DNA of 64,000 nucleotides from the NCBI RefSeq assembly GCF_000564855.1, contig NZ_AYXG01000004.1, forward strand, positions 62,001 to 126,000, read 5' to 3'. Numbering within the stretch: position 1 is the first letter of the stretch; each line of letters opens with the position of its first letter. This stretch comes from Actinokineospora spheciospongiae (lineage in GTDB: Bacteria; Actinomycetota; Actinomycetes; Mycobacteriales; Pseudonocardiaceae). This document shows, one piece after another, positions 2,117-32,598 of this stretch. Under the pieces are notes generated by a model, which saw nothing but the letters and a program-made list of their open reading frames with translations, was not told where the DNA came from and ran no database searches. The position numbers and the translations under genes were made by a program.

Positions 2117-3996
2117 CGTCCAGGACGACCACCGGGCAGGCCACGGACCGGCCCCGGCGCGCAGCCCCCGAGCAAGCCGCGGCCAGCACCCTGGCCGACG
2201 ACCAAGAGGCCCCCTTCGACCAGGACCGGCTACCGACGCCCCCGGGGTCCTCGCGCGCGCTGCTCGCGTCGCTGCTGCGTCCGCACTCCCGCAGGCTGTG
2301 GGCCTCGGCCCTGCTTGTCCTGCTCCAGCAGGGCGCGGTGCAGTCGGGCCCGCTGCTGGTGGTCGTCGCCATCGACACCGCGGTCCCGGCCCTGCGGGGC
2401 GGCGACCCGGTTCCACTGCTGTCTGTCGCGGTGGCCTACCTGCTGACCGCAGTGCTGGCGGGTGGGGCCCAGTACGCTTTCGTCCGGCAGTCCGGGCGGG
2501 TCAGCCAGGATGTGCTGTTGGGCCTGCGCACCCGGATTTTCCGGCAGTTGCAGGACCTCAGCGTCGACTTCCACGACCGCTACACCTCCGGCCGGGTCAT
2601 CTCCCGGTCCACCGCCGACGTGGAGAACCTGCGCGGGCTGGTGCACAACGGCCTTCAAGACCTGGTTGAGATCGCGCTGTCCACCCTCTACATCTCCGCG
2701 GTGCTGCTCTACCTCGACTGGCAGCTGGGTGTGGCGGCGCTGGCATCCACTCCGGTGCTGGTCCGCCTCGTCCGGTCGCTGCAGCGGCGCTCGATGCGCG
2801 CCTACCGCCGGAAGTCGACCGCCACCGCCTCGGTCGTGGTGAAGCTCGCCGAGACCCTCAACGGCATCCGCACTGTGCGCGCATTCCGCCGCGAACGGGC
2901 CAATGACGCGGCGTTCGACGTCGTGAACCGGCGCCATGAGCTGGCGAGCGGGGACGCCTCCCTGGAGATGACCCGCTACATCGTCTTCTCCCGCCTGGTC
3001 GCCGACACCGCCGTGGCCGTGCTCATGCTGTGGAGCGCCTACCGGGTGGCCACGGGGATGCTGGAGCTCGGCGTGCTCGCCGGGGCGGTGCTGTACCTGC
3101 GCAGGCTCTACGACCCGATCGACCGGTTGGGGATGCTGCTCAACTCCTACCAGGCTGCGGCGGCCTCCCTGGAGAAGATCGCCGGGTTGCTACTGCAACG
3201 CCCCGGTGTCCCCCCGCCCGCGACCCCGGTCGAGCTGCCCGTGCCGCGCGGACCGGGACCGGGGCGCGCCTTGGTCGTTGAGGCTGCCTCCTTCGCCTAC
3301 CGCACCGGCGGCGAGGTCCTCCCGCGCACTGACCTCGCACTCCGGCCGGGCAGCACGGTCGCCGTGGTCGGGGCCACCGGCGCGGGCAAGTCCACCCTGG
3401 CCAAGCTGCTCGCCCGCTTCCACGACCCGACCACCGGCAGGGTCCTGCTCGACGGCATCGACCTGCGCGACCTGACCGACGCGGACCTGCGCCGCGCCGT
3501 GGTCATCGTCGCCCAAGAACCCTTCCTGTTCTCCGGCACCGTCAGCGACAACATCGAGATCGGTCGCCCGGGGGCCACGAGGGAGCAGGTTGTGCGCGCC
3601 GCCGAAGCTGTCGGCGCGCACGCCTTCATCACTGCCCTGCCCGACGGCTACGACACCGACCTCCGCGCCCGCGGCGGTCGCATCTCCGCAGGCCAGCGTC
3701 AACTGGTCTCCTTCGCCCGCGTCCTGCTGGCCGACCCCGCCGTCCTCATCCTCGACGAGGCGACCGGCTCCCTTGACCTTCCCGGCGAACGCGCCGTCCA
3801 GTACGCCATGCGCACAGCGCTGCACGGCCGCACCGCCGTCGTCATCGCCCACCGCCTCTCCACCGCCGAGACTGCCGACCGCGTCTTGGTCATGGCCGAC
3901 GGCCGCATCGTCGAAGACGGCGCCCCTGCCGACCTCGTCGCTGCGGGCGGCCGCTTCGCCGACATGTACCGCGCCTGGAACGAAAGCCTCCGCTGA
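2113..3996 (+). CDS. ABC exporter half-transporter, canonical subunit
   Basis: This 627-residue protein is also a membrane domain fused to an ATPase domain. Start chosen at ATG 2113 because it overlaps the previous stop by four bases; the longer open frame upstream is only the shadow of the first gene. The N-terminal ~60 residues are hydrophilic and variable. Walker A is GATGAGKST, the signature is the slightly unusual ISAGQRQ, Walker B is AVLILDEATGSLD with the catalytic Glu present, and the switch is IAHRLST. It should supply the hydrolytically competent site in a heterodimer with its neighbour. Substrate unknown; multidrug or peptide export are the common roles of this family. Confidence 0.92.
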   Translation: MTSRTTTGQATDRPRRAAPEQAAASTLADDQEAPFDQDRLPTPPGSSRALLASLLRPHSRRLWASALLVLLQQGAVQSGPLLVVVAIDTAVPALRGGDPVPLLSVAVAYLLTAVLAGGAQYAFVRQSGRVSQDVLLGLRTRIFRQLQDLSVDFHDRYTSGRVISRSTADVENLRGLVHNGLQDLVEIALSTLYISAVLLYLDWQLGVAALASTPVLVRLVRSLQRRSMRAYRRKSTATASVVVKLAETLNGIRTVRAFRRERANDAAFDVVNRRHELASGDASLEMTRYIVFSRLVADTAVAVLMLWSAYRVATGMLELGVLAGAVLYLRRLYDPIDRLGMLLNSYQAAAASLEKIAGLLLQRPGVPPPATPVELPVPRGPGPGRALVVEAASFAYRTGGEVLPRTDLALRPGSTVAVVGATGAGKSTLAKLLARFHDPTTGRVLLDGIDLRDLTDADLRRAVVIVAQEPFLFSGTVSDNIEIGRPGATREQVVRAAEAVGAHAFITALPDGYDTDLRARGGRISAGQRQLVSFARVLLADPAVLILDEATGSLDLPGERAVQYAMRTALHGRTAVVIAHRLSTAETADRVLVMADGRIVEDGAPADLVAAGGRFADMYRAWNESLR

Positions 3997-4105
3997 GATG
4001 GTTTTCGCCGGCGCTGTGAGGTCGGGGCGCGTGTGGTCGCGCGCGGAGGGTCGTGGTGGGATCCGGTGTGTGAGCGTGGTCCCGAACCGGTGCCATAGTG
4101 GGGTG

Positions 4106-4332
4106 ATGGGCGCAAGCGGTGCGGAAACGGCGTGGGAGTTCGCGCTGTCCAACCTGGCAGGGATTGGGGCGGTGGCGGAGACGGGGGTGCCGGTGCGCAG
4201 CGACTGCTCGCCGCTCAGTCGCGCCTTTACACCGACGCCCAACGCATCCACGACGCGCGCCTGATTACCGTGCTGGCTCTGGCATCGATCCGCGGTCGCC
4301 TCGTTCAGCGAGTGCGGCGGGGGACATGCTGA
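4106..4332 (+). pseudogene. Possible N-terminal remnant of an S-4TM-like membrane protein
   Basis: The stretch has a GTG/ATG-rich start near 4106, and in the frame beginning near 4132 a segment AAQSRLYTDAQR followed by ARLITVLALASI. This resembles the start of S-4TM-type membrane effectors (a Leu-Ala-Ala-x-x-x-Leu-Tyr-x-x-Ala motif before a membrane helix). The frame runs into unrelated sequence at about 4330, where the alcohol dehydrogenase remnant begins on the other strand. If real it is a broken 5' end left by insertion or deletion. Resemblance is by eye only, over about 30 residues. Confidence 0.25.
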
Positions 4333-4563
4333 TCAGGCGAAGTCCAGGATGGCCTTGAGTCAGCCGTCCTTGCGGCGGTCGAAGGTCTCGTAGGCCCTGA
4401 CCGCGGATCGGTTTCTCGTGCTGGGTGATGAAGGCGGTGGGGTTGACCATGCCGCTGACCACGAGGTCGAGCAGTTCGGGCAGGTAGCGGCCGTGGTTGT
4501 AGTTGCCCATCTTCACGGTGAGGTTGCTGTTCATGGCCTCACCGGTGGGAAAGCTGTCGTTTG
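4333..4563 (-). pseudogene. 3' fragment of a zinc-dependent alcohol dehydrogenase, decayed
   Basis: Read leftward, the segment encodes the family's C-terminal end: GEAMNSNLTVKMGN, then YLPELLDLVVSG, then NPTAFITQHEKP. Just after that a frame change is needed to continue as AVRAYETFDRRKDG; the next codon, expected to be Trp, is TGA, and LKAILDFA with a normal stop follows in the same frame. So there are at least one frameshift and one nonsense change, and everything upstream of this C-terminal piece is missing. The break lies about 35 bases from the integrase stop codon, so this debris probably marks the left junction of the mobile element or an older rearrangement. Confidence 0.75.
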
Positions 4564-4596
4564 AAGCGAACCACGATCGAACTGCAGGCCACGGGA

Positions 4597-5835
4597 TCAA
4601 CTGGTCCGCCGTAGCTGCCGGAGGGAGCGAGGAACATCCGGCGCAGGCGGTGCTCCGATCAACGGGATGGGCAGGTTGTCCGGCTGGAGGCCGGTGACGG
4701 TGAAGAGGGCGTCGTTCCAGCGGCGTTGCAGGGAGTCGAGAAGGCGGGTTTCGACTTCGGGGGCGACGTGGCTGTAGAGGTGCTCGATCTTATCGGGGAT
4801 GCGGTGGCCGAGGCGTTTGGCTTGGGCGATTTCGGGGATAAGGTCGGCGATGAGCCAGGTTTTGTGGCTGTGGCGCAAGCCGTGGACGGTGAGGCCGGGT
4901 TGGACGGGTGGGAGGGTGGGCCAGTGGTCGGGGTGGTTGCGGGTGCCGTCGGCGGCGGGGCGCATGACGCGGCGGGAGAAGTTGGAGCGGCGGGGGTGAT
5001 CACCGTTGGGGGTGAGGAAGACGAAGTCGTGGTCGTGGGTGGCGAGGTGGTGTTGCAAGAGGACGACCAGGAACGGAGGCAGGCTGATGGTGCGGGCGGA
5101 CTCGTCGGTCTTCGGGGGTCCGAAGAAGAACCTGCCGTCGATTTCGAGGAGGTTGCCCTCGTCGAGGTCGATGACCATGTGCCCGGTGACGAGGTGAAGG
5201 TCGTGGCGTTGCAGGCCGAGTAGTTCGCCCCAGCGGGCGCCGGTCCAGGCGGCGGTGATGAGGAGGATGGCGGCCCAGGGGCCTGCGAGGGTGGCGGCGT
5301 GCAGGGCGATGCGCAGGGCGCGGTCGGGGGTGGTGTGGACGCGTTCGCGGGGTGTGGCGCGGCGGCGGCGTCCGCGCCGGTTGGGGCGGTAGGGGTTGGC
5401 GTGGATGAGGCGCTCGTCGGCGGCGTCGGAGAGCATCATGGACAGGAGTTTGACCATGGCGGCGACGGTGGTGGGGGCGTAGCCGTCGTGGTGTTTGGTC
5501 TTCATCCAAGCGCGGATGGACAGGTTGGTGATGGAGTCGAGGCTGTGCTGGCCCCAGTGGGGTGTGAGATGGTTGTTCCAGAAGCTGCGGTACTGCCGTT
5601 CGGTGTTCGGGCCGACGTCGAGGGCGTCGAACCACTCCGTGGCCCACGCGGTGAGGGTGGTCTTCCCGCCGTCGGGGTCGATGAACTGTGCGCGTCGTTG
5701 GTCGACGGTGATCTCTTGTGCTGTGTTCTCGGCTTCGGTTTTGGTGGTGAAGCCGGACAGGGAGCCGAGGCTGCCGTCGGGTTTGGGGTAGCGCACACGC
5801 CAGGAGTCGGGTCCGGCGGGTTCGACGTAGGCCAT
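4597..5835 (-). CDS. int: Tyrosine-type site-specific integrase
   Basis: This 412-residue protein has the actinobacterial integrase layout: an N-terminal arm-type domain, a SAM-like core-binding domain (about 60-145) and a C-terminal catalytic domain. Catalytic residues visible are Arg201 (TGARWGELLGL), Lys242, the His318-x-x-Arg321 box (VHGLRHSH), His344 (RLGHR) and the nucleophile Tyr354 (LYSHV). It should cut and join the element's attachment sites. The gene points out of the element, as is usual when the attachment site lies just beyond the integrase, here around 4560-4600. No tRNA gene or repeated core was found next to it. An HTH protein that may act as excisionase lies 100 bases upstream. 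Confidence 0.95.
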   Translation of the reverse strand: MAYVEPAGPDSWRVRYPKPDGSLGSLSGFTTKTEAENTAQEITVDQRRAQFIDPDGGKTTLTAWATEWFDALDVGPNTERQYRSFWNNHLTPHWGQHSLDSITNLSIRAWMKTKHHDGYAPTTVAAMVKLLSMMLSDAADERLIHANPYRPNRRGRRRRATPRERVHTTPDRALRIALHAATLAGPWAAILLITAAWTGARWGELLGLQRHDLHLVTGHMVIDLDEGNLLEIDGRFFFGPPKTDESARTISLPPFLVVLLQHHLATHDHDFVFLTPNGDHPRRSNFSRRVMRPAADGTRNHPDHWPTLPPVQPGLTVHGLRHSHKTWLIADLIPEIAQAKRLGHRIPDKIEHLYSHVAPEVETRLLDSLQRRWNDALFTVTGLQPDNLPIPLIGAPPAPDVPRSLRQLRRTS

Positions 5836-5935: not shown

Positions 5936-6316
5936 TCAGGGGACGCGGTGCCCGCGGGTGCGAGGGTCTCCGGTGGTGCCCGCGGCGCTCTGCTCGGCGA
6001 TCGCGGTGAGGTCGGCGTGGGTGAAGCGCAGGTGCTTGCCCAGGTACCGGCAGGGGATCGCGCGGGCGGCTGCTTTGCGTCGCAGCCAGGACGGGCGGAC
6101 TTGCAGCAGTGCGGCGGCCTGTTCCGGGGTCAGCAGCATTTGGGAGTCCACGGGCGCTGCGTTCGGTCGCGGTGGTGGTGTCGCCCGGTTGTGGGGGTGC
6201 GCTTCGGTGGTGGGCGGCGCTTCGCCGGTGAGAGGCCGCCGGGGCGCGACGGGGTCGCCGATGCCGGGCCGGCGGGTGCCGGCGATCCGCCTGGTGGGTG
6301 TTTTGCCGTGCTGCAT
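5936..6316 (-). CDS. Excisionase-like helix-turn-helix protein
   Basis: This 126-residue protein has a Pro-rich N-terminal half and, from about residue 60, a MerR/excisionase-type winged helix: LLTPEQAAALLQVRPSW, then RKAAARAIPCRYLGKHLRF, ending in THADLTAIAE. Start at ATG 6316 is supported by GGAG seven bases upstream; an internal Met at about residue 60 would give the bare DNA-binding domain. Position beside a tyrosine integrase suggests a recombination directionality factor. Its first 187 bases overlap the 3' end of the DpdA-like frame, which is unusual. Confidence 0.8.
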   Translation of the reverse strand: MQHGKTPTRRIAGTRRPGIGDPVAPRRPLTGEAPPTTEAHPHNRATPPPRPNAAPVDSQMLLTPEQAAALLQVRPSWLRRKAAARAIPCRYLGKHLRFTHADLTAIAEQSAAGTTGDPRTRGHRVP

Positions 6317-7110
6317 GGGTCACTCCGTTCAGCCTGCGGCACTGTGCTGGTGCTGCTCGTGTCGGTGTGTGGGCTGGAGTCCAGGCGTTGGGTGACGCGC
6401 CGGTACCAGGACAGGGCGAAGCCCAGACAGTTCGATTCGCTGCGGTGGGTGGGGGAGCAGCCGGGCACGTACCGTCCGCTGAAGCTCCAGGACATCGAGT
6501 CGCTGGAGGTGATGGTGTCGCCGTAGCGGTCGAGGCCGAGGATCTTGGCGCCGAAGGTATGCAGCCGGTACCCGCGGGCGGTGAGGGCGCGGACGATGGC
6601 TTCGACCTCGGCGGTGTGCTGGCGGCGACACACGCTCCCAACCCCCACCAAAGGAAGCGTCGCCAGGTCGACGCCGTGGCGTTCGTAGAGGTCGGCGCAG
6701 TGGTGGTAATCGGTGATCGACTGGCCTTGCAGGACCGGGATGAACGGCAGGTCCGGGGCGAGGTCGCGCAGCCGCAGGTAGTCGGTGACGGTGCGACGCT
6801 GGTGGCTGCTCAGGCTCAGCCCGGTGCGGGCCAGCACCGAGCCCTCGGTCATCCAGTCGCGGGGTGCGGCCCAGTCGAGGTTGCCGATCTCGGTGGCGTA
6901 GCGGCGCACCGCTGTGGCGTAGGCGACCGCGTCGGTGCGCCACCGGCCGTGCAGGGACAGTTCGGTGAAGCCGCCCGAGTCCAGTGCCCACGGGCCGCTC
7001 GCCCGCGGGAGGCTGCGGCGCCCGGCGAGGCGCCGATGGCTGACCAGCAAGGGGACGCCGAGGTCGCGGGCGAGCCAGGCGGGTTGATGGGTTCCCAGGT
7101 AGAACCTCAC
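6130..7110 (-). CDS. dpdA-like: DpdA-family TGT-like deazaguanine DNA-modification protein
   Basis: The 326-residue protein begins RFYLGTHQPAWL and carries a tRNA-guanine-transglycosylase-like signature: ALDSGGFTE with Asp44, AAPRDWMTE with Asp85, PVLQG, LVGVGSVCRR and SSDSMSWS. These match the DpdA relatives found in actinophages and actinobacteria. Known DpdA enzymes exchange guanine in DNA for a 7-deazaguanine such as preQ0. Start is GTG 7110, overlapping the transporter stop (GTGA). The next gene upstream encodes a queuosine-precursor transporter, consistent with use of an imported base. After about residue 245 the frame is low complexity and overlaps the HTH gene, so the true C-terminus is doubtful. 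DNA rather than tRNA as substrate is inferred from the methyltransferase neighbours. Confidence 0.8.
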   Translation of the reverse strand: MRFYLGTHQPAWLARDLGVPLLVSHRRLAGRRSLPRASGPWALDSGGFTELSLHGRWRTDAVAYATAVRRYATEIGNLDWAAPRDWMTEGSVLARTGLSLSSHQRRTVTDYLRLRDLAPDLPFIPVLQGQSITDYHHCADLYERHGVDLATLPLVGVGSVCRRQHTAEVEAIVRALTARGYRLHTFGAKILGLDRYGDTITSSDSMSWSFSGRYVPGCSPTHRSESNCLGFALSWYRRVTQRLDSSPHTDTSSTSTVPQAERSDPCSTAKHPPGGSPAPAGPASATPSRPGGLSPAKRRPPPKRTPTTGRHHHRDRTQRPWTPKCC

Positions 7111-7682
7111 GGCCGCACCATCCGACCCGCGGCGTGCAGGGCGAGCAGGGTGCACGCCGTGGCGGCTGTCTTGCCCAGGATCTGACCGGGCACGGCGGCC
7201 ACGTCACCGAAGGCCAACGGGACGAACACCGCGCTGTCGACCACGAGTCCGACCACGTTCGACACCGCGACAGCTCCCAAGCGCGTGCGGTGTCGAACCC
7301 GCGTGTAGATGACGGCGTCAAGGGCTTCGGAGAGGACGAAGGCCACGACGCTGGCCACCGCGATCTGCGACGAGGCCAGCACCGCGGACACCCCGGTCCC
7401 GGCCACAATGCCCGCGGCCACGCCACGCGGTCCGCACACCTCGTGCACCAGGTCCCGGGCGGTCAAGCTCACCCCGGCGAATAATGTTCCCGCCGGGATG
7501 AGCAACCCACCACCGGCCAACGGCGACCAGTGCACCGAGACGACGTTGGCGGCGACGACCGAAAGCAGGTATCCGATCATCGCCGCCACACCGAGCACCA
7601 CCGACGGCCTCGATGCCGCCGGACACAACACCGGCGTGGACGCTGCAATAGGGGCCTGCGTCGTCGTGGTCGCGGTGCTCAC
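7107..7682 (-). CDS. VUT/YhhQ-family queuosine-precursor transporter
   Basis: This 191-residue membrane protein has about six hydrophobic segments (for example MIGYLLSVVAANVVSV and SVVAFVLSEALDAVIY). It carries the family's AGVSLTARDLVHE loop and the conserved SEALDAVIYT region. YhhQ-type members take up preQ0 or preQ1; here import would supply the base for the DpdA-like enzyme. The start is GTG 7682, which overlaps the stop of the PP-loop gene (GTGA), and the stop overlaps the DpdA-like start, so the three are translationally coupled. No preQ0 synthesis genes (folE, queD, queE, queC) occur in the window. Confidence 0.85.
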   Translation of the reverse strand: MSTATTTTQAPIAASTPVLCPAASRPSVVLGVAAMIGYLLSVVAANVVSVHWSPLAGGGLLIPAGTLFAGVSLTARDLVHEVCGPRGVAAGIVAGTGVSAVLASSQIAVASVVAFVLSEALDAVIYTRVRHRTRLGAVAVSNVVGLVVDSAVFVPLAFGDVAAVPGQILGKTAATACTLLALHAAGRMVRP

Positions 7683-8626
7683 GCCGCACGCTTCCCGGAG
7701 CCGGGTACCGGTTCACCGGAGCGGCACGACCACGGCGAGCAGCCGTCCGGGTCGCCGTCCTCCTCGGTGTCCGCGCCAAGTGCCGCTTCGGCGGTGATCA
7801 GCCGCAGGTGCTTCTTGGTTCTCGTGGGCGCGTCGAGGTCGACCTGGTCGAGTGGGACGCAGGAGCGGTGCAGGAAGTACTGCCCGCGCAACTGCTGTCC
7901 CTGGGTGGTGGCGCGCGGGTAGCCGTGGCGGATGGCCCGGTCGAACTCGATCGCTTCGGCCCACCCGAGTGGGTCGTGGTCGCGGATCCACCGCCACCCG
8001 GCGTTGCCGTGGAACGGACACCCCACGCAAGCTGACTTCACCGTCGCGCCGAATCCGCGTTCAGTGAGGTAGTCCACGCACCGGGTGCGGTCGAAGCCGA
8101 GGTCGATCAGGGGGAAGGTGTTGCGCAGGAACCGCAGACCGGAGTCCTTGGCGCGGGTGAACTCGTCGGTGCTGATGCCGATGGCCTGCTCGGCGTACAC
8201 CCCGCGCGGCACCCGCCGCGGGTGCGGATACCCCAGCAGCTCCCGGGCGGCCTTCTTCAACGGGACGAGCTTGTACTCCTTGGTGCATTGGCGGCGGGCG
8301 AGCCCGCGTGACCCGTCGGGGTTGAGGGTGTGCAGCGGCATGGACACGAACCGGTGGCGGGGGTCGAGGGCGTCGGCGCGGATGTCCCCGGCGGAGACCT
8401 GCCGCACCGGGATGCCTCGCTTGCCAGCGTGGATGGCCAGGCGCCGGAGGTTGGCGTAGACCGCGCGGGGTTCCCAGCCGGTGTCGGCGAACAGGGCCAC
8501 GTCGAACGGGGGGATCTCGCCTTCACAGGCCAGCAGCAGGACCGTGGTGCTCTGCACTCCGGCACCCAGGGACAGCAGCCGCAGCGCGGGCCCGGTGTCG
8601 GGCGCGGTCGAAGTTGGTGTGCTCAT
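7679..8626 (-). CDS. PP-loop ATPase, phage-type PAPS-reductase-like protein
   Basis: The 315-residue protein starts at ATG 8626, overlapping the C5 methyltransferase stop (ATGA); longer frames upstream are shadows. The N-terminus LRLLSLGAGVQSTT is an S-x-G-x-x-S PP-loop that binds ATP, followed by FDVALFADTGWEP. Later come ARRQCTKEYK with a Cys, and SACVGCPFHGNAGW with a Cys pair. This is the phosphoadenosine-phosphosulfate-reductase-like family common in phages and islands, where its chemistry is unknown; related PP-loop enzymes adenylate bases or transfer sulfur. Its place between a deazaguanine transporter and a DNA methyltransferase suggests a step that decorates the base, but this is inference. 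Confidence 0.8.
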   Translation of the reverse strand: MSTPTSTAPDTGPALRLLSLGAGVQSTTVLLLACEGEIPPFDVALFADTGWEPRAVYANLRRLAIHAGKRGIPVRQVSAGDIRADALDPRHRFVSMPLHTLNPDGSRGLARRQCTKEYKLVPLKKAARELLGYPHPRRVPRGVYAEQAIGISTDEFTRAKDSGLRFLRNTFPLIDLGFDRTRCVDYLTERGFGATVKSACVGCPFHGNAGWRWIRDHDPLGWAEAIEFDRAIRHGYPRATTQGQQLRGQYFLHRSCVPLDQVDLDAPTRTKKHLRLITAEAALGADTEEDGDPDGCSPWSCRSGEPVPGSGKRAA

Positions 8627-9951
8627 GCCGCTGCCCTTTCCTGCCCGGTGCGGGGCTGGTGGTCGGTGTGGATGAGTGCGTCGAGGTCGGTCAGCAGCAG
8701 CGACACCGCGTGGGCCGCTTGCTGGGGGAGAACGCCGTTGCCCAACGCCCGCAGTTGCGCGGTGCGGGGCAGGGGGAGGTCGGTGACCCACCCGCTCGGT
8801 AGGCCCATGAGGTGCTCGACGAAGGCGGGGGCGAGCACGGGGCGACCGTGGTTACCGGGCTGGGTCGGGTACGGCGCCGGGCGCCCGAGCACCGCCTCCC
8901 AGCGGCGGACCGCGGCCTCATACGGGCCCCAGTTCACCGGCCCCGCGGGCGGCGGGCCGACCGGCTCGACGACCGGTCCGGGAACCGCTGCGAGGTGGCG
9001 CCGTCCGGCGCGTCCGGTGGTGGGGTGAACAGGCTGATGACCGCGGAGGGCAGCATCAGGTCGCCCTTGGACCCTCGCTGCGCCGGGCAGCCCTTCGTGC
9101 CGTCGGTGGCCCGCGGTGTCGGCAGCAGTCGCACCGTGTCCGGCAGTGACGACCCACCGGCCTGGGTTCGGTGCGTGCAGTTCTTCGCGTCGGAGGCTGT
9201 CGGCGTCGGCAGCAGCCGGAGCCGGTCGGGCAGCGGCGGGCCGCTGCTCGGCTCGGCGGCGCAGACACTGTTCGACGAGTCGTCGGGTGCGGTCCTCGAT
9301 GACGCTGTTCCCGTGTCCTCGACCTGTGTGGGGTGGGCGCGGCCAGGCGAGGAGGAACACGCGTTCGCGGCGGTGGGCGGCGCCGATGTCGGCGGCGCGG
9401 ACGCTACGCCATGCCGCGTCATACCCCGCTTCGGCCAGGTCGCCGAGTACACGGTGCAACCCGCCGTTGCGCCAGCGGAGGGCGGCGACGTTCTCCACGA
9501 CGACGAGTGCGGGTCGTAGAAGGCGAAGGCCCGCCACGATGTCGGACCACAACCCACTGCGGGCCCCTTTCTCGATGCCCGCCCGGGTGCCCGCGGCGGA
9601 GATGTCCTGACACGGGAACCCGGCGACGAGCACATCGACCGGGGTCAGGCTCGCCCAGTCGATGTGCCGCAGGTCCCCGAGGTTGGGGACGGCGGGCATC
9701 CGGGCGGTGAGGATGGTGGTGATGTGCGGGTCGGGGTCGGCGCACCAGGCGACGCGGCCCTCGCCGAGCGCGGCGAGCACACCGAGGTCGAGGCCACCGT
9801 GCCCGGTGCACAGCGACCCGACAATCGGCTCCCGGCTGTCGGTGAACGGCGACGCTGGTGCCGTGGCCGGCCCCGCCCCCGCCGCCGTGGCGGCGGCGGG
9901 GACGCGGGCGCACCCGGACCGGCGCGGTGCGGTGTGCGCTCGGGTGTTCAT
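8623..9951 (-). CDS. C5-cytosine DNA methyltransferase with a frame-shifted target-recognition region
   Basis: The open frame of 442 residues has the C5 methyltransferase motifs: SLCTGHGGLDLG (motif I), GFPCQDIS with catalytic Cys114 (IV), VVENV at 151-155 (VI), RRERVF (VIII), and LRALGNGVLPQQA (X). Between motif VIII and the C-terminus, about 9250 down to 8970, this frame reads low-complexity Arg/Ala/Pro, while the neighbouring frame reads typical actinobacterial methyltransferase sequence (LLPTPTASDAKN, LLPTPRATDGTKG, GDLMLPSAV). One extra base followed by one missing base explains this. All frames stay open, so a full-length protein with a scrambled recognition region is possible; so are two sequencing errors. 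ATG 9951 overlaps the upstream stop. Confidence 0.85.
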   Translation of the reverse strand: MNTRAHTAPRRSGCARVPAAATAAGAGPATAPASPFTDSREPIVGSLCTGHGGLDLGVLAALGEGRVAWCADPDPHITTILTARMPAVPNLGDLRHIDWASLTPVDVLVAGFPCQDISAAGTRAGIEKGARSGLWSDIVAGLRLLRPALVVVENVAALRWRNGGLHRVLGDLAEAGYDAAWRSVRAADIGAAHRRERVFLLAWPRPPHTGRGHGNSVIEDRTRRLVEQCLRRRAEQRPAAARPAPAAADADSLRREELHAPNPGRWVVTAGHGATAADTAGHRRHEGLPGAARVQGRPDAALRGHQPVHPTTGRAGRRHLAAVPGPVVEPVGPPPAGPVNWGPYEAAVRRWEAVLGRPAPYPTQPGNHGRPVLAPAFVEHLMGLPSGWVTDLPLPRTAQLRALGNGVLPQQAAHAVSLLLTDLDALIHTDHQPRTGQERAAA

Positions 9952-11132
9952 GCCGCCCGACTCTCCGGCGCACTCGGCCTGCCGCTGGGGTCTGCGGTGT
10001 GTCGCGCTCGGTCGCGGGGGCGGTGCGCCTGCCGGCGGTCGGTCGCGGTGTCCGAGGTGGCGGTGCGGCGCAGAGGGGTGCGGAAGATGAGCACGTCCTC
10101 GTGGGCGATCAGGTGCAGGGGCAGCCCGGCTTCGCGCTGTTTGCGGATGAAGTCGCGTTGGAAGAACGACCCGCGGGCGACGAGGTCGGTGTCCGCGGCG
10201 CGGGCGAGGAGCGCGACGTTGCGTTCGATGGGGATCAGACCGGCGTGCAGGCCGCAGGTGAGGATCTGCGAGGGCAGGTCGATCAGTTCGGCGTGTTCGC
10301 GCCAGGGGCGGATGGTGATGGCGATGTGCCCGCCCGGCCGCAGGTAGCCGGTGAGTCCGGCGAGGATGCGGGTGAACCCGGTCAGCAGTCGGTGGTGGCC
10401 GATGTTGGCGAGGTTGCCGCGGTCGAGGGTGTTGCCGTAGAGGTGGTGGTATTTCTGCACCCCCGCCCCGGGGGCGACCGACACCTGCCCGTGCGTGGAG
10501 GGCCCGTACGGGGGTGAGGTGACCACCAGCGCCGCCTGCCCGTAGTACTCCGCCGGCAGCAACGAGGAGAGCCTGCGGGCGTCCCCGTGGAACACCCGGC
10601 CCTCATGGGTTGCTCCGGTGTCGTGGGCGAGGGCGAGGTTGGCGCGGGCGACGTCGACCCAGTGCGGTTCGTACTCGACCCCGACCGCACGCCGCCCGGC
10701 GTGCAGGGCTTCGACGAGGGTGGTGCCGATCCCGCACATCGGGTCGAGCACCAGGTCCCCGGGGCGGGTGTAGTGGGCGATGGCATGAGCGGCGACGGCC
10801 GGGAGCATCTTGGCCGGGTGCGCGGTCGAGCCGGGCACGTAGCGGCCCTTGCGCTGGGACACCGGGGCACGTTGCGCGGTCGTCCACACCGACACCGCCA
10901 CGTCCCCCACCGAACCCCCCGTCGTGTCCTCGACCGTGCCCGCGGGCAGGACGGCGGTGGTGGTGTCGAGGTGGTCGATGACGGCGCGCGGGATGCGCCG
11001 GGTGGGCCCGTCGACGGGCCCCGGACCGGGGTCGGGCACGGGGGAGAGCGGGGTGCGGTCGTCGGCCACGGGGGTGCCTTCCTGGCGGTGGTGTCCGGGG
11101 TGGGTGGGGCCGGGAACCCGGGCGCGGCTCAT
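9948..11132 (-). CDS. Site-specific DNA methyltransferase, N4-cytosine/N6-adenine type
   Basis: The 394-residue protein has the amino-methyltransferase pair of motifs: the SAM-binding DPMCGIGTTLVEAL and the catalytic TSPPYG, with GVEYEPHW and GRVFHGDARRL between them. The order (SAM site first, SPPY later) and the TSPPY form suit either N4-cytosine or N6-adenine methylation. The C-terminal part includes YLRPGGHIAITIRPWR and a long Arg-rich tail. ATG 11132 overlaps the upstream stop (ATGA); a GTG about 20 codons later with an AGGAAGG ribosome site is an alternative start. No restriction endonuclease is adjacent, so this looks like a solitary modification enzyme. Confidence 0.88.
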   Translation of the reverse strand: MSRARVPGPTHPGHHRQEGTPVADDRTPLSPVPDPGPGPVDGPTRRIPRAVIDHLDTTTAVLPAGTVEDTTGGSVGDVAVSVWTTAQRAPVSQRKGRYVPGSTAHPAKMLPAVAAHAIAHYTRPGDLVLDPMCGIGTTLVEALHAGRRAVGVEYEPHWVDVARANLALAHDTGATHEGRVFHGDARRLSSLLPAEYYGQAALVVTSPPYGPSTHGQVSVAPGAGVQKYHHLYGNTLDRGNLANIGHHRLLTGFTRILAGLTGYLRPGGHIAITIRPWREHAELIDLPSQILTCGLHAGLIPIERNVALLARAADTDLVARGSFFQRDFIRKQREAGLPLHLIAHEDVLIFRTPLRRTATSDTATDRRQAHRPRDRARHTADPSGRPSAPESRAA

Positions 11133-12199
11133 CGGATGACTCCGCTCTCGTCCGCCTGCTCGGCCGGGGCGGGGCGAGGCGGCTCGTGCTCGTGCGGCTG
11201 GGCGAAGACGAGGACGTCGGAGTGGATGCGCTGGTGCGGGGCGGGCAGCCCGCGCACAACCGCCCGGTGCCGGGCCCGGTCCTCGGCCTCGGTGTCGTCG
11301 GGGGCGGTGGGCGGTTCGGTGGTGAACCGGCCGCCGTGGACGGGGGCGTGTAGGGCGACGATGTGCTGCAGGTAGAGCAGGTCGGCGTTCTGCGCCGAGG
11401 CCACCACCGCCCCGGTCGGGTCGATCAGCTCACCCGAGGTCCAGTCACAGTGGGTGAGTACGACGAGGATCCCGCCGACCCGCAGCAGCCGGGCCGCGAC
11501 TGCGGCCAGCAGGTCTGCGGACCGCTCGTCGCCGTCCTCGGAACGCAGACTGGTGATGACCAGGTCCGTGTCCGCCGGTGCGTCCTCACCCGGGTCGAGG
11601 ACACCGTCGTCGACACCCAGGTGCGCCTGCGGGAAGCCTGTGAATGGCGGGTGCTCGCCATCGTCGACGAGGTCGACCCGCGACGACCGCACGCGAGCGC
11701 CGAGGGCGGTCGGATCGACCGCGACGCGCACCACGCGCGCGGTCCGGTCGAGGCTGGCGACGGTGGCGAGCGCGGCGGCGAGTTCGTCGTCCGGACCGGT
11801 CACCGGGGAACGGTCGATCACCCCGCCCGAGTCGACCAGGGCGAGCCGCGGGCGGGCAGGGGAGACCGGCCAGGGCAGGAGCGCGACGCGTGCGCCGGGC
11901 TCGCTGAACGAGCCGACGACCGTGGTGATGATCGGTGTCGGCCACGGGGTGTGCAGGTCGATCGGAACCGGACCGGCGGTCCAGACCGTGGCCGGGGTGG
12001 GCGTCGTGGCCGACCCGCGCGACCGGGAGCCGGTGCCCGCCGGATCGGGCTTGGCCGGGCTGATGCGGGTGGTGGCCGCCGCGGTCGGATAGGGGCGGCG
12101 GTCCCCGCCGCGGCGGGCACCGGATCGGGTGCTCGCCGGGCGGGTGGCATCGCCGCGCCGCTTCGGTCCGCGGGAGGCGGAGTGCTCGGACTGGGGCAT
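11129..12199 (-). CDS. Methyltransferase-fold protein without a visible catalytic motif
   Basis: First gene of the leftward operon. Start is ATG 12199, with AGGA nine bases upstream; the longer open frame to 12394 runs through AT-rich promoter sequence. The 356-residue protein has about 95 disordered, Arg/Pro/Ser-rich residues, then a Rossmann-like stretch (IITTVVGSFSEPGARVALL, VIDRSPVT), and a late ARLLRVGGILVVLTHCDW, DPTGAVVASAQNADLLYLQ and HSDVLVFAQP. These match the C-terminal half of the SPPY methyltransferase family, but no SPPY/DPPY motif is visible. It may be a non-catalytic partner or specificity subunit of the downstream enzyme; this is inference. Confidence 0.65.
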   Translation of the reverse strand: MPQSEHSASRGPKRRGDATRPASTRSGARRGGDRRPYPTAAATTRISPAKPDPAGTGSRSRGSATTPTPATVWTAGPVPIDLHTPWPTPIITTVVGSFSEPGARVALLPWPVSPARPRLALVDSGGVIDRSPVTGPDDELAAALATVASLDRTARVVRVAVDPTALGARVRSSRVDLVDDGEHPPFTGFPQAHLGVDDGVLDPGEDAPADTDLVITSLRSEDGDERSADLLAAVAARLLRVGGILVVLTHCDWTSGELIDPTGAVVASAQNADLLYLQHIVALHAPVHGGRFTTEPPTAPDDTEAEDRARHRAVVRGLPAPHQRIHSDVLVFAQPHEHEPPRPAPAEQADESGVIR

Positions 12200-14313: not shown

Positions 14314-16611
14314 ATGACCCCCTCAATCAGCCCCATCACGTCCCGCCCACCGGCAGGCGCGGGCCTCGACGCGGTGTCCTCCGGGCCGACATCAACGCAG
14401 GGCGATGCGGCGTCGGCGGACCATCGGAAGATGCTCGCGCCCCCGACGGCGAGCCCCCACCGAGCCCGCCGGGTGGTGCGAGGTGTTGCCCGCGGTCGGG
14501 TGCTGGCGGCGTTGGCGGCGAGCGTGCTCGTCGTGCTGGGCGGGGCCCTCACCGCCGCGGCTCTAGGCTCCGGCGCGGGTTCGCCTGCCGTGTCCGCCGC
14601 CGCGGCGCAGCCACCGCTGCCGACCGTGGACCCTGGCCCGTGCGCCCCTGGGACGCCGCTGCCGGTCTGCACCCCGCCCACCCCGCCCACCACGCCCCCG
14701 GTGAACGGGGTGCCGCTGCCCACCGTGGTCCCGACGCTGCCGCCGTGCGACCCGAGCCTGCCGTTGCAGCCATGTGCGCCGACCGGCACCACGGCCCTGC
14801 CGGTGCCGTCGACACCGTGTTCCGGTGTGGGCTGTCTCCCGCAGCCCGGCGCCACCACCCCGCCGCCGACCGGCCCCGGAACCGGGGCACCCGACCAGGG
14901 CGAGGAGCCGCAGGACGAGTGCGGGATCACCGACATCGGGGCGTGCGTCACCGAGGCCATCGACACCTTCTTCCGGGGCTTCGTCATCGAGGCGCTCAAC
15001 CCGTTGCTGGACTTGCTGTCGGCGACGTTGTTGACCACCCCGGTACCGGGGGCGCTGCCGCGGCTGGGGGAGTTGTGGGACAACTCCTGGCAGATCCTGC
15101 TCGTCTGCTATGGGCTGCTCGTGCTCATCGCCGGGATCATCGCCATGGGGTATCAGAGTGTCCAGACCCGACACTCGGTCAAGGAACTCGCCCCGCGCCT
15201 GGTGTTCGGGTTCCTGGCCGGGGCATTGTCGTTGTGGGTGGCGGGTACGGGCATCGAGATCGCCAACGCCCTCGTCGCGGCCATCATGGGTGGTGGTGTC
15301 GATGTGAGCACCGCCGGGCGGGCCCTGCGCGAACTCGTGCTCGGGTCGGTCCACGGCGGCCTCTGGATCGTCTTCACGGGCCTCGTCCTGGCCGGGATGC
15401 TCATCGCCCTGCTGCTGACCTACATGGTGCGGGTGGCACTGACCATCGTCCTGATCGCCGGTGCCCCGGTGGCGTTGATGTTCCACGCCCTGCCGCAGAC
15501 CGAGGGCATCGCCTACTGGTGGTGGAAAGCCTACGGCGCCTGCCTGGGCATCCAACTCGGCCAATCGCTGACGCTGATCACCGCGATCAAGGTATTCCTG
15601 ACCCCCGGCGGGTTCGCCCTCTTCGGCCCGACCACATCCGGGTCGACCAACCTGCTCGTCGCCCTCGCACTGGTCTACATCCTGTTCAAGATCCCCTCCT
15701 GGATGCTGTCCTCGATCTGGGGCGGGGGCAGCCGAGGCGTGATCGGATCGATGGTGCGCGCCTTCGTCGCCTACAAAACTTTCGGGCTGCTCGGTGGCCG
15801 AGGCGGCGGTAAGGGCTCCAAGCCTCGTCCGCCTGGTGGTGGTCGAGGTGGAGGCGGGCGTCCCGGCGGGGGGTCGTCGGACCCGTACGCGAGCCCGCGC
15901 ACCGCCGCAGGCGGGCAGTACGTGTTGCCGCTGCCCGGGGTGCGCCGCGCCCGCCCCGCACCGAAGCCGAAGTCTGCTCCGTCCCCGAAGTCCTCGGCGC
16001 GGCAGGGCCGCCAGTTGGCGTTGCCGTTGAGGGAGGACTGGCCGGAGAACAAGCCGGTCCTCGGCCGCGACGGGCAGTATCAGCTGCCCCTGGACGTGCA
16101 GCGCACCACACCGCCACCGGCCTCGCCCGCCGCCGAGACCGGTGCCCGACGCCCGGCACGCAAGGGCAGGCAGCCGCAGTTGCCGTTCGACCCCTACCAA
16201 GGCAACCGGGCGACCCGGACCGGGCAATACCCGCTGCCGTTGGACGGCGTGCGCCGGATGCCGCCCCCGACCGCTCCGTCACCGCCCGCAGCACCGCGCC
16301 CGCGCGGACGCCGGGTGGTCCAGCCGGAGTTGCCATTCGACTCCTACCAAGGCAACCGTGCAACCCGCGACGGGCAATACCCGCTGCCGCTGGACGGGGT
16401 GCGACGAGTACCGCCACCCAAGCCCACCCCCGTCCCGCCGCCCGCGGCACCGCTGCCGTCCGTCCCGCGCACGGGACGGCAACTGCGGCTGCCACTGGAC
16501 CTGCCCACACCACCCAAGGCGCCGCCGACACCGGCCTCCGCTCCACCACCGCCACCACCGCCGCCGCGGCGGTCACCACGGAAACCCAAGCCTGGAGGTA
16601 AGTCCTCATGA
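14314..16611 (+). CDS. VirB6/TrbL-like channel protein with a repetitive cytoplasmic tail
   Basis: The 765-residue protein has a signal-anchor helix near residues 65-85, a Pro/Thr-rich external linker, and then a core with about six membrane helices (for example ILLVCYGLLVLIAGIIAMG and ALTIVLIAGAPVALMFHAL). The core includes the WWKAYGACLGIQLGQSLTL region seen in actinobacterial TrbL-like proteins. This is the inner-membrane channel of the type IV secretion system. The last ~260 residues are a Gly- then Pro/Arg-rich tail containing eight copies of a short Leu-Pro-Leu or Leu-Pro-Phe motif, such as GQYQLPLD and QPELPFD. Its stop overlaps the PrgI-family start (ATGA). Confidence 0.85.
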   Translation: MTPSISPITSRPPAGAGLDAVSSGPTSTQGDAASADHRKMLAPPTASPHRARRVVRGVARGRVLAALAASVLVVLGGALTAAALGSGAGSPAVSAAAAQPPLPTVDPGPCAPGTPLPVCTPPTPPTTPPVNGVPLPTVVPTLPPCDPSLPLQPCAPTGTTALPVPSTPCSGVGCLPQPGATTPPPTGPGTGAPDQGEEPQDECGITDIGACVTEAIDTFFRGFVIEALNPLLDLLSATLLTTPVPGALPRLGELWDNSWQILLVCYGLLVLIAGIIAMGYQSVQTRHSVKELAPRLVFGFLAGALSLWVAGTGIEIANALVAAIMGGGVDVSTAGRALRELVLGSVHGGLWIVFTGLVLAGMLIALLLTYMVRVALTIVLIAGAPVALMFHALPQTEGIAYWWWKAYGACLGIQLGQSLTLITAIKVFLTPGGFALFGPTTSGSTNLLVALALVYILFKIPSWMLSSIWGGGSRGVIGSMVRAFVAYKTFGLLGGRGGGKGSKPRPPGGGRGGGGRPGGGSSDPYASPRTAAGGQYVLPLPGVRRARPAPKPKSAPSPKSSARQGRQLALPLREDWPENKPVLGRDGQYQLPLDVQRTTPPPASPAAETGARRPARKGRQPQLPFDPYQGNRATRTGQYPLPLDGVRRMPPPTAPSPPAAPRPRGRRVVQPELPFDSYQGNRATRDGQYPLPLDGVRRVPPPKPTPVPPPAAPLPSVPRTGRQLRLPLDLPTPPKAPPTPASAPPPPPPPPRRSPRKPKPGGKSS
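16168..16422 (+). repeat. In-gene tandem repeat in the channel-protein tail
   Basis: Two copies of a roughly 85-base unit, starting near 16174 and 16324, encode LPFDxYQGNRATR, then GQYPLPLDGVRR. They differ at a few mostly silent or conservative positions. Shorter degenerate units lie before (15915-15940, 16008-16025, 16075-16092) and after (16478-16500). The copy number is a likely site of length variation. Confidence 0.8.
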
Positions 16612-17804
16612 CCGCGCCTGTGCGTATCCCGGCTGATGTGGACATGGCCGACCGGGTGCTCGGCCCGTTGACCGCACGTCAACTGGGCATCCTCACCGCC
16701 GCCGGGGCGATGCTCTACCTGGCCTGGCTCGCCACCCGCGCGTTCCTGCCGCTGCCGGTGTTCCTGGCCTTCGCAGCCCCCGTCGGTGCGGGTGCGGCGA
16801 TGCTCGCCCTGGGCCGCCGCGACGGCGTGCCGATGGACGCGCTGCTCGTCGCCGCGATTCGCCAGCGCCTCGCCCCACGTCACCGCGTCGCCGCACCCGA
16901 GGGGGTGCGCCCGGCCCCGGTGTGGCTGACCCCAGGCGGCGAACAGACCGCAGGCGCGGGCGGCAGGGGCCGGGTAGGGCAACCGGAGCAGGTCTCGCCC
17001 TCGGCGCTGCGGCTGCCCGCCGAGGCTGTCACCGAGACCGGGGTCATCGACCTGGGCGGCGACGGCCTGGCGGTTGTCGCGGTCGCCTCCACGGTGAACT
17101 TCGCGCTGCGGACCGCGAACGAGCAGGAGGCACTGGTCGCCTCGTTCGGCCGGTACCTGCATTCGTTGACCGCACCGGTGCAGGTGCTGGTGCGCACCGA
17201 GCGCCTCGACCTGTCGGGCCAGATCGCCGAGTTGCGTGAGCGCGCCGGTGGGTTGCCGCACCCGGCGCTGGAGGCCGCCGCGGTCGAGCACGCCGACTAT
17301 CTGGCCCACCTCGGCGCCCAGTCTGACCTGCTGCGCCGCCAGGTGCTGCTCGTGCTGCGCGAACCCCGCGCCGCGGCGGCACCGACCGACGGCCTCGGTG
17401 GGCCCGGCCCGTTGGCGGTGCTCGCCTGGATGGCGGGCAAGCGCCGCACCCAGACCGGACAGGTCGACGCCGGGATCCGGCGGGCCGCGGAGTCGCGCCT
17501 GGTGCGCCGCCTCGGCGAGGCGATCGAGCTGCTGGCTCCGGCCGGGATCGTGATCACCCCGCTTGATGCCGGGCAGGCCACGGGGGTGCTGGCCTCGGCG
17601 TGCAACCCCGACAGCCTGCTGCCCCCGTCCGCGGGGCTGGCCGGGGCGGAGGAGGTCATCACCACCACCGGCCCACACCCGTCCGAAGACGACTACCCCA
17701 CCGACACCACGTTCTCCACCACTCCGTCGCCTGGAGGGGATGAGGACTTCGACGACTGGGACTACGAGGACGACTACGACGACGAGGAGAGGGCGCGATC
17801 CTGA
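16608..17804 (+). CDS. PrgI-family/SCO6880-like type IV secretion protein
   Basis: The 398-residue protein begins with a short segment and two membrane helices (LGILTAAGAMLYLAWLA and PVFLAFAAPVGAGAAML), the PrgI/VirB3-like layout. A soluble part follows with GDGLAVVAVASTVNFALRT and FGRYLHSLTAPVQVLVRTER, which resembles the N-terminal domain normally fused to VirB4. The C-terminus is very acidic (EDFDDWDYEDDYDDEE). It should anchor the VirB4 ATPase of the next gene, with which it shares a TGATG overlap. In other actinobacterial conjugation loci the same PrgI then VirB4 order is usual. Confidence 0.85.
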   Translation: MTAPVRIPADVDMADRVLGPLTARQLGILTAAGAMLYLAWLATRAFLPLPVFLAFAAPVGAGAAMLALGRRDGVPMDALLVAAIRQRLAPRHRVAAPEGVRPAPVWLTPGGEQTAGAGGRGRVGQPEQVSPSALRLPAEAVTETGVIDLGGDGLAVVAVASTVNFALRTANEQEALVASFGRYLHSLTAPVQVLVRTERLDLSGQIAELRERAGGLPHPALEAAAVEHADYLAHLGAQSDLLRRQVLLVLREPRAAAAPTDGLGGPGPLAVLAWMAGKRRTQTGQVDAGIRRAAESRLVRRLGEAIELLAPAGIVITPLDAGQATGVLASACNPDSLLPPSAGLAGAEEVITTTGPHPSEDDYPTDTTFSTTPSPGGDEDFDDWDYEDDYDDEERARS

Positions 17805-19738: not shown

Positions 19739-19780
19739 CCCATCGCGTCGCGCGCCCGCGCATCACTCGAAGGAACCGTC

Positions 19781-22420: not shown

Positions 22421-22471
22421 CCCCGATGGCAGCACAAACCATTCGGCCCACTGACATTCGGAGGTTCCGGC

Positions 22472-23539
22472 ATGATCACCGATCCCACCCGGCAGCGCGC
22501 CCTGCGCGGCCACAAGCCCACCCGTCCGAACCCGCGCGCCGCGAACACCGCCGAGCACCAGGCCGTGCTGGCGTGGCGGCTGACCGCACGGGACAAGTGG
22601 ATCGCCCGGATGCTCTGGGAGCACCGGGTGCTCACCGCCCACCAGCTCACCGCGCTGGCGTTCCCGTCCTTCCGGTCCGGGCGGATGCGGCTGCGTGAGC
22701 TCTACACCTGGGGTGTGCTTGACCGGTTCCAGCCGTTCGTCACCGTCGGCACCGCCCCCATGCACTACGTCCTCGCCCCCGCCGGGGCCGCGGTGCTCGC
22801 CGCCGAGGACGGTGTGGACGTCAAGGAGATGGGCTACCGGCACGACCGGGTCTTCGGTGTCGCCCACAGCCTGCGCCTGGCCCACACCGTCGGGGTCAAC
22901 GAGTGGTTCACCGCCCTGGTCGACCGCGCCCGCCACCCCCAACCCGGTGAACAGGCGACGTTGGCGGTGTGGTGGTCGGAGACCCGCTGCGCCCGCCACT
23001 TCGGCGACCTGGTCAAACCTGATGGCTACGGCCGCTGGCAGCACCGCGACCAGCACGGGGACCGGCAGGTCGAGTGGTTCCTGGAGTACGACTTCGGCAC
23101 CGAGGTCCTGGGCAAGCTCGCCGGGAAACTCACCGGCTACGCCGCCCTCGCCCAGGCCACCGGCATCACCACCCCGCTGCTGGTGTGGCTGCCGACCGCA
23201 CGACGCGAGGCCACCGCGAGGCGGCTGCTGGTACGAGCCTGGCGTGAGCTGGACGACCCGCGCGTTGTTCCGGTCGCCACCGCCGCGGCCGACCTGCTCA
23301 ACCCCGACGCCGCCCATCCCAGCCCCGCCGACGAGGTCTGGCTGCCCCTGGACACCCATGCCGGTGGAGGACGGCGGGCGCTGCCGGGGCTACTCGACGC
23401 CTGGCCGCACCTGCCACCGCCGGTCACCCCCGATGACCCCACCGCGCTCGGCTTCGAAACCCACCCGCTCTCGCCCCCACCCCCGCCGATGCCGCCCACC
23501 GCCCCACCACACGCGCCCGGCCGACACGGGCGGAGGTGA
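22472..23539 (+). CDS. Replication-relaxation family protein, relaxase candidate
   Basis: The 355-residue protein starts at ATG 22472 after GGAGG. The N-terminal part is a winged helix (LTARDKWIARMLWEHRVLTAHQ, interrupted after 20 residues here, then FPSFRSGRMRLREL). The middle part holds VKPDGYGRW followed by VEWFLEYDFGTE, a possible PD-(D/E)xK-type set of acidic residues, and then TPLLVWLPTARRE. This is the replication-relaxation family, related to MobC-type relaxases. No classical HUH relaxase with a His triad is present in the window, so this is the best candidate for the nicking protein. The C-terminus is Pro-rich. Confidence 0.75.
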   Translation: MITDPTRQRALRGHKPTRPNPRAANTAEHQAVLAWRLTARDKWIARMLWEHRVLTAHQLTALAFPSFRSGRMRLRELYTWGVLDRFQPFVTVGTAPMHYVLAPAGAAVLAAEDGVDVKEMGYRHDRVFGVAHSLRLAHTVGVNEWFTALVDRARHPQPGEQATLAVWWSETRCARHFGDLVKPDGYGRWQHRDQHGDRQVEWFLEYDFGTEVLGKLAGKLTGYAALAQATGITTPLLVWLPTARREATARRLLVRAWRELDDPRVVPVATAAADLLNPDAAHPSPADEVWLPLDTHAGGGRRALPGLLDAWPHLPPPVTPDDPTALGFETHPLSPPPPPMPPTAPPHAPGRHGRR

Positions 23540-26051: not shown

Positions 26052-26090
26052 GGTCGTGTCCTTGGTGATCGAGGTGTCGTGGTGGTGTTC

Positions 26091-26140
26091 GTCGCCGCAA
26101 GCCCGCGAAGCGCGGTCGGGCATCGCGGGCTTGCGGCGAC
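26091..26140 (-). terminator. Perfect 17-bp hairpin between the two RAMA genes
   Basis: GTCGCCGCAAGCCCGCG (26091-26107) and CGCGGGCTTGCGGCGAC (26124-26140) are exact complements around a 16-base loop. It lies between the stop of RAMA gene B and the start of gene A, both leftward, so it probably ends or attenuates transcription from gene B. It could also be a protein-binding site ahead of gene A. Confidence 0.7.
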
Positions 26141-26238
26141 GGTGACGGTGTGAGCCCGTTCGGGGCGGGCCTTGTCGGCGGGAAGGCACCCGTGTGCCCG
26201 CACACCCGGGGCGTGGGCGGTACTACGTCGGACCGAAG

Positions 26239-32500: not shown

Positions 32501-32530
32501 GCGCAGCAGCTCCACGATCCACCATTCGAC

Positions 32531-32577
32531 GACCGCGGCCCGGTGGGCGGGGACACCCCGCCCACCGGGCCGCGGTC
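32531..32577 (+). terminator. Perfect 22-bp hairpin between precursor and LanB genes
   Basis: A 22-base arm at 32531-32552 (beginning GACCGCGGCCCGGTGG) is an exact complement of 32556-32577, leaving only a three-base ACA loop. It follows the precursor stop by 30 bases and precedes the LanB start by 21. It should stop most transcripts, or protect the precursor mRNA end, so that the peptide is made in excess over the enzymes. Confidence 0.8.
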
Positions 32578-32598
32578 GCTGGCAGAAAGGTATTGCCG

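Follow-up and report, generated by a model that had tools for sequence, protein, structure and literature searches.

A putative transfer-linked DNA-modification operon with a probable 7-deazaguanine importer in an integrative and conjugative element of Actinokineospora spheciospongiae

Why should a conjugative element carry genes for base exchange, base import, and DNA methylation directly next to its integrase gene? This question is raised by a 64,000-nucleotide stretch of the Actinokineospora spheciospongiae genome (contig NZ_AYXG01000004.1, positions 62,001 to 126,000; the whole stretch is termed the window). Six leftward genes with intact frames occupy 6130-12199 and are joined by five consecutive 4-base overlaps (ATGA or GTGA), as an initial annotation made from the sequence alone had described. 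In the direction of reading, this cassette encodes a methyltransferase-like protein (MTlike), an amino-type DNA methyltransferase (MTase), a C5 cytosine MTase, a PP-loop protein, a VUT family transporter, and a DpdA-like transglycosylase. The gene xis (5936-6139, minus strand), encoding an excisionase-type helix-turn-helix (HTH) protein (PF12728; PHROG 1840, excisionase), starts inside the 3' end of the DpdA gene with a 10-base overlap, and int (4597-5835, minus strand), encoding a tyrosine integrase (PF00589, PHROG 1), follows 100 bases further on, resulting in a run of eight genes. With moderate confidence, we interpret these eight genes as a transfer-linked DNA-modification operon of an integrative and conjugative element (ICE) of the type IV secretion system (T4SS) type, in which an importer would feed base exchange in DNA.

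The cassette proteins were matched against Pfam, PHROGs, NCBIfam, and PADLOC, the PADLOC scan covering the cassette proteins only. The protein encoded at 6130-7110 (minus strand, GTG start at 7110) matched PF23859 with 299.2 bits (3.3e-89; gathering score 27) and PHROG 1279 (4.1e-87). Both family matches agree with its earlier designation as a DpdA-like transglycosylase, and by family it is a DNA guanine transglycosylase: PF23859 is named DeoxyPurine in DNA protein A, and the annotation label of PHROG 1279 is queuine tRNA-ribosyltransferase. The window DpdA gave no match up to E 0.1 in NCBIfam, including the bacterial-type DpdA model NF041059, which did match the host's own bacterial-type DpdA. 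A search of PDB sequences with DpdA profiles gave no match, and a fold search was therefore needed. The AlphaFold2 model, built with 48 relatives, contained a confident barrel (218 residues with a pLDDT, or predicted local distance difference test, of at least 90) and a low-confidence tail; the conserved domain is encoded at about 6376-7110. The only PDB match found by Foldseek at E ≤0.001 was the tRNA-guanine transglycosylase (TGT) 2pot (1.4e-5, TM-score 0.45), and the model appears to adopt a TGT-type barrel fold. The initial annotation had regarded a structural placement with tRNA enzymes only as fatal to its proposal. The PDB match is a tRNA TGT, the family is that of a DNA enzyme, and the tRNA TGT model PF01702 did not match the protein. 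Two aspartates, D59 and D219 as counted in the frame of 341 residues, were invariant in all 49 DpdA sequences and are probably the counterparts of the TGT aspartates.

The hosts of related genes bear on the choice between DNA and tRNA as the target. Genome loci were found through DpdA, and the best 80 of 185 were analyzed. Two copies of the window region (L001 and L009) were left out of the counts, and some of the loci are near-copies; four of them (L026, L027, L029, and L030) have identical DpdA domains and are counted four times in tallies over 80. The host survey comprised the genomes of 50 of the 80 loci plus A. spheciospongiae itself, i.e. 51 hosts; the other 30 loci include L022 and L059, both of which have a VUT. 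No tRNA TGT (PF01702) was found in the genome of A. spheciospongiae, and 14 of 14 controls were positive. PF01702 matched in three of the 50 further hosts, but according to their coordinates two of these matches (in G007 and G046) fall inside a bacterial-type DpdA. A full-length TGT was thus present in only one of the 51 hosts, Nocardia puris (G036), the single host in which the known route to queuosine in tRNA would be open, and ordinary tRNA queuosine is therefore an unlikely use of the cassette. DNA, which had been proposed at the outset, is the likelier target of the window DpdA in this host lacking a tRNA TGT. Zallot 2017 (PMC5372724) had already connected COG1738 transporters with DNA deazapurine genes in bacteria lacking a TGT.

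The gene overlapping that for DpdA (7107-7682, minus strand) encodes a member of the VUT/YhhQ family, a designation that is secured by a family match to PF02592 (44.9 bits, gathering score 27.2). The protein is a small, divergent VUT/COG1738 member, remaining below the curated equivalog cut-offs, and is probably a 7-deazaguanine importer. It shares its family with YhhQ, which works in tRNA salvage in Escherichia coli according to Zallot 2017 (PMC5372724), whereas there is no known tRNA use for such a base in the window host. It is the sole VUT found in its own genome, and a single VUT was likewise found in 22 of the 28 surveyed genomes with a VUT-containing cassette. In three genomes, coordinates place a VUT match about 2-3 kb from queC in chromosomal dpd islands (G003, G007, and G021, the last under the cut-off).

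A transfer module lies divergently to the operon (14314-23539, plus strand). It encodes a presumably TrbL-like membrane protein that did not match Pfam, along with PrgI, VirB4/TraG-like, VirD4-like, and Replic_Relax proteins; a gene for an NlpC/P60 protein is also among the transfer genes divergent to the operon. Integrase, VirB4, VirD4, and relaxase are therefore all present, the relaxase by the family name Replic_Relax alone, and they assign the element to the T4SS-type ICEs; the initial view of a conjugative element was upheld. Homologues of the window transfer genes (at least two members or neighbours) were found beside DpdA in 24 of the 80 loci, 22 of which also contained VUT.

VUT was present in 29 of the 80 genome loci overall. 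After dereplication, VUT adjoined DpdA with the same orientation in 26 of 76 genome loci and 24 of 71 viral loci. The two were also neighbours in three of five plasmid loci, three of these five plasmids having been picked for their VUT annotation. DpdA relatives occurred in phages (399 of 50,697 records) and plasmids (66 of 72,556). In a DpdA tree of 153 sequences, from which identical sequences and those below 200 residues had been removed, the smallest well-supported set including the window comprised 15 rows (SH-aLRT 97), and all 15 had VUT. Over the whole tree, VUT presence required at least 19 changes, implying that its gain or loss was frequent. A search with the single VUT sequence yielded no match in named phages and one in plasmids; such a search is too weak for this family, since VUT is annotated beside DpdA on three plasmids and profile searches of the loci did find VUT. 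The 325-kb linear plasmid NZ_CP108778 of Embleya sp. NBC_00896 has its C5 MTases, PP-loop, VUT, and DpdA arranged as in the window, with an HTH gene following the MTases; unlike the window, it showed no integrase in the 24.7 kb examined, and the amino MTase pair was not detected. The ratio of nonsynonymous to synonymous substitution rates (dN/dS, NG86) was 0.10-0.68 in all 25 comparisons of the window with relatives (five genes, without that for the C5 MTase, in five relatives). Given these ratios and the same gene order in related loci, the arrangement is more than chance. The cassette is real and conserved, and it is probably a functional variant of mobile DNA modification by 7-deazaguanine that has its own importer and is linked to excision genes.

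The upstream half of the cassette is devoted to MTases. The C5 cytosine MTase (8623-9951, minus strand; PF00145, 4.7e-29) holds the C5 MTase motifs GFPCQ and ENV. The amino-type DNA MTase (9948-11132, minus strand; PF01555, 4e-15) contains DPMCGIGTT and TSPPYGPSTHG, and its best PDB profile match was 2zie, a putative modification methylase. MTlike (11129-12199, minus strand, start at 12199) has an arginine/lysine-rich N terminus and remained without a match in all four databases at E values of up to 0.1. Genes for the pair formed by MTlike and the amino MTase were detected in 24 of the 80 genome loci (25 with the window), and 23 of the 24 also had VUT. TSPPY was kept in 11 of the 25 amino MTases of these pairs and was lost, with the gene retained, in 14; it was absent from all 25 MTlike proteins, the corresponding column reading TSLRS in the window MTlike. 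Among the 14 pairs lacking SPPY, C5 MTase was present in one and VUT in 13, whereas DpdA was present in all by selection. The first cross-matches between MTlike and the amino MTase came from iterated profiles. With all 25 pairs, hhalign reached 98.5% over 258 columns, compared with 7.5% (11 and 7 rows) and, for each clade, 61.4% and 92.2% in smaller sets. A profile built from the 11 intact amino MTases failed to match any of the 25 MTlike proteins, one built from the 14 degenerate enzymes matched three, with the window MTlike as the best (4.5e-12), and MTlike profiles matched one and six of the 25 amino MTases. Although these direct tests were mixed, MTlike is probably a paralogue, now degenerate, of the adjacent amino MTase, and the earlier term "methyltransferase-like" was corrected in this sense on account of the hhalign value of 98.5% and the lost TSPPY. 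We read the two as a catalytic and a degenerate partner, which may share a conserved task beyond methylation.

The PP-loop ATP-pyrophosphatase-like protein (7679-8626, minus strand, start at 8626) resembles PAPS (phosphoadenosine phosphosulfate) reductase and SspD (PHROG 424, 3.7e-43; PADLOC SspD, 1.1e-7) and did not match Pfam. Its best PDB sequence-profile match was a protein named PptA (1.3e-5). The model had a pLDDT of 85, and Foldseek returned YcfA and CysH as best matches, along with LarE and MnmA, all weak at TM-scores of about 0.3-0.5. Cysteines C114, C183, C200, and C203 were invariant in 49 sequences, and a role in sulfur transfer is what we would guess from the model. A PP-loop domain of at least 290 residues was found within 2 kb of DpdA in seven of the 80 loci (L011, L013, L014, L016, L018, L025, and L031), and shorter pieces occurred near DpdA in some others. 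The PP-loop enzyme is an accessory to the DpdA module. Plasmid matches to this protein (H130-H141, from Agrobacterium and Rhizobium plasmids) run into a gene annotated as ArdC family.

The VUT-less loci present a different picture. The neighbourhoods of 26 chosen loci (within L036-L089), with an integrase 2-5 kb downstream, were clustered. An upstream gene family was common to 24 of the 26, its representative being weakly similar to FtsK/SpoIIIE (22.7 bits; Pfam cut-off 24), and single members of neighbouring clusters matched RepSA, DUF3631, DUF3987, SSB, HTH_17, and Phage_integrase. The loci look like pSAM2-type actinomycete integrative and conjugative elements (AICEs), with DpdA as if it were a backbone gene. 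In L067 (9698-12352), a single open frame of 885 codons encodes both DpdA and RepSA, a replication initiator of the pSAM2 type; by eye, the frame could also contain an internal TTG start. RepSA is encoded in an open reading frame of its own, oriented like DpdA and at most about 4 kb away from it, in seven further loci; a second fusion was not found among plasmids, as none of 97 matching records covered 80%. Like the window, pSAM2-type AICEs have an integrase and xis, and in the AICE-like loci among the DpdA relatives int lies 2-5 kb downstream of DpdA. AICEs use a single FtsK-like transfer protein, whereas the window element has VirB4/VirD4-type genes.

The host of the window has a Dpd system of its own. 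On one contig (C126; L090 11115-17296), queD, queE, and queC lie beside dpdC, dpdB, dpdA, and a second dpdB; another (C24; L261 331-15278) carries dpdE, dpdF, dpdH, and dpdJ. Judged by gene content, the core of a classical Dpd restriction-modification system is thus present in the host, spread over two contigs of its draft assembly (the search left out dpdD, dpdG, dpdI, and dpdK). The earlier remark that no preQ0 genes lie nearby thus holds for the window and fails for the host, in which queD-queE-queC sit inside the dpd island; of the two sources envisaged, salvage or host synthesis, salvage is accordingly not the sole source of preQ0 here. Among 390 genomes of the family, mobile-type DpdA (PF23859 above its cut-off) was found in 98, bacterial-type DpdA (NF041059 above its cut-off) in 16, and both in 13, at different places by coordinates in all 13. 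Mobile-type DpdA was present in 13 of 16 genomes with and 85 of 374 without the bacterial type (Fisher odds ratio 14.7, p 2.3e-6, uncorrected for kinship; p 7.6e-6 without the own genome). At most six candidate places per genome were scored, and matches may be missed; 16 of the 98 genomes had weak or short matches, and with strong matches only (82 genomes) the figures were 13 of 16 versus 69 of 374 (p 2.3e-7). Since both types are concentrated in a few genera, the true association is probably weaker. In the host survey, bacterial-type DpdA occurred in six of 28 hosts with and six of 23 without VUT at the locus, indicating that the link to Dpd is not particular to the importer. We consider it possible, though rather unlikely, that the mobile DpdA module is a counter-defence against resident Dpd restriction systems. 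The module would then mimic the 7-deazaguanine self-mark of the recipient, take up the base when the donor is unable to synthesize it, and rely on the degenerate MTase pair, instead of DpdB, to assist DpdA in handling DNA. A shared supply of preQ0 explains the association as well as counter-restriction does.

For the ICE operon that we favour, the following course can be proposed. VUT would import a free 7-deazaguanine base, most likely preQ0, or supplement base made by the host, and DpdA would swap DNA guanines for it. The C5 and amino MTases would add ordinary methyl marks, and the PP-loop enzyme may add a further step involving sulfur or nitrogen. Since the cassette genes lead directly into xis and int, marking would take place upon activation of the element, and the copy passed to the next cell would arrive camouflaged. 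Observed in all this are the genes, their order and conservation, the lack of a tRNA TGT, and the preQ0 genes of the host; co-transcription of the cassette, suggested by the gene overlaps, the identity of the base, DNA as its target, and the protective purpose are what we infer in this proposal.

Several observations weigh against it. With TIGR00697 (queuosine precursor transporter), VUT scored 36.5 bits, below the equivalog cut-off of 50.95. A comparison of the stretch left of int (about 3801-4640) with the rest of the window for att repeats yielded repeats of 14-16 bases only. QueC exceeded the cut-off in 12 of 28 hosts with VUT and seven of 23 without (p 0.40), and these 51 hosts lend no support to the notion that VUT makes up for a missing QueC. 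Fourteen of the 23 hosts of VUT-less loci had neither QueC over the cut-off nor any VUT, implying that DpdA persists there without an evident base supply; in one of the 14 (G045), a QueC match narrowly missed the cut-off. In the 16 of 28 VUT-bearing hosts without QueC at the cut-off, import would be needed.

The want of an evident base supply in 14 of 23 hosts also speaks for another explanation, in which the MTases and the PP-loop enzyme are the working part, active in orphan modification or anti-restriction methylation, and VUT and DpdA are passengers that idle without preQ0. Hutinet 2019 (PMC6884629) reports unmodified DNA for phage Orion, which has DpdA only and a host without preQ0 genes, and this fits with idle passengers. 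The same paper gives dPreQ0 at about 28% of G for phage Rosebush, which has preQ0 genes, and the two phages together are in keeping with the favoured ICE operon. Against the passenger explanation, SPPY has been lost in 14 of 25 amino MTases and C5 MTase remains in one of these 14 loci, yet VUT is kept in 13, and dN/dS is 0.23-0.33 for DpdA and 0.25-0.68 for VUT. We regard this explanation as unlikely. Still less probable, in our estimate, is a minimal tRNA salvage pathway, in which VUT would import queuine or preQ1 and the DpdA-like enzyme would insert it into host tRNA in place of TGT. The lack of TGT in DpdA-locus hosts, the tRNA TGT as best PDB fold match, and the function of E. coli YhhQ as described in Zallot 2017 would all suit such a pathway. 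Against it stand the membership of the window protein in PF23859 and PHROG 1279, the missing match to PF01702, the position in one run with DNA MTases adjoining xis and int, and the open frame that one relative (L067) shares with a DNA replication initiator.

A last possibility is that the cassette supplies the modification half of a system for restriction-modification or addiction, by which the host of the element would be protected and not the element itself. MTases and Dpd genes are indeed associated with defence, but the cassette genes are joined to xis and int, and neither a restriction nuclease nor any of dpdD-K was among the PADLOC matches listed (the best 25 of 55 and 25 of 60 for the MTases). 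This we consider the most improbable of the explanations.

How does the ICE operon relate to known systems? Like the phages Rosebush and Orion, the window has DpdA on mobile DNA, and some phages encode YhhQ homologues according to PMC6884629. The window differs in being an ICE, with the importer adjoining DpdA and with MTases and a PP-loop enzyme in a run joined to xis and int; the phage DpdAs may not belong to the family of the window DpdA. With the classical dpd island of the Salmonella Montevideo type, the cassette shares a TGT-fold enzyme, which here too would put 7-deazaguanine into DNA. Unlike the island, the cassette has no queDEC, and its DpdA belongs to PF23859, not NF041059; DpdB, DpdC, and a restriction gene were absent from the PADLOC matches listed for the cassette (the best 25 rows for the two MTases). 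YhhQ is reported in about 9% of classical dpd islands (PMC11888242). The initial annotation called the combination the strongest candidate for something undescribed, which is too strong in view of phage and plasmid DpdAs, viral and plasmid VUT-DpdA pairs, and the link between COG1738 transporters and DNA deazapurines drawn in Zallot 2017. A description of such an ICE cassette was not found in the portion of the open-licence PMC literature available to the search; in the accessible text of papers on actinobacterial ICEs, the word queuine was absent from PMC3218068, and queuine, queuosine, and DpdA were absent from PMC9513070.

Further genes of the window are mentioned for completeness. Class I lanthipeptide dehydratase and cyclase genes (LanB and LanC, 32497-36923) are possible cargo of the element. 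A tandem pair of proteins with RAMA (restriction-enzyme adenine-methylase associated) domains is encoded at 25197-27138, and an NB-ARC/TPR/HTH protein adjoins a cytokinin-dehydrogenase-like FAD protein at 49658-53161.

DNA containing 7-deazaguanine is known as a disguise of phages and as a self-mark of bacteria. New here are the TGT-less hosts, the recurrence of the module beside ICE transfer genes, and the association, unadjusted as it is, with bacterial Dpd systems. If the interpretation is true, horizontally transferred conjugative DNA wears the same disguise, equipped with its own importer, in hosts without a known tRNA use for the base. It becomes a testable question whether conjugative elements copy the Dpd self-mark to pass Dpd restriction, and the answer could help to explain barriers to gene transfer in antibiotic-producing actinomycetes.

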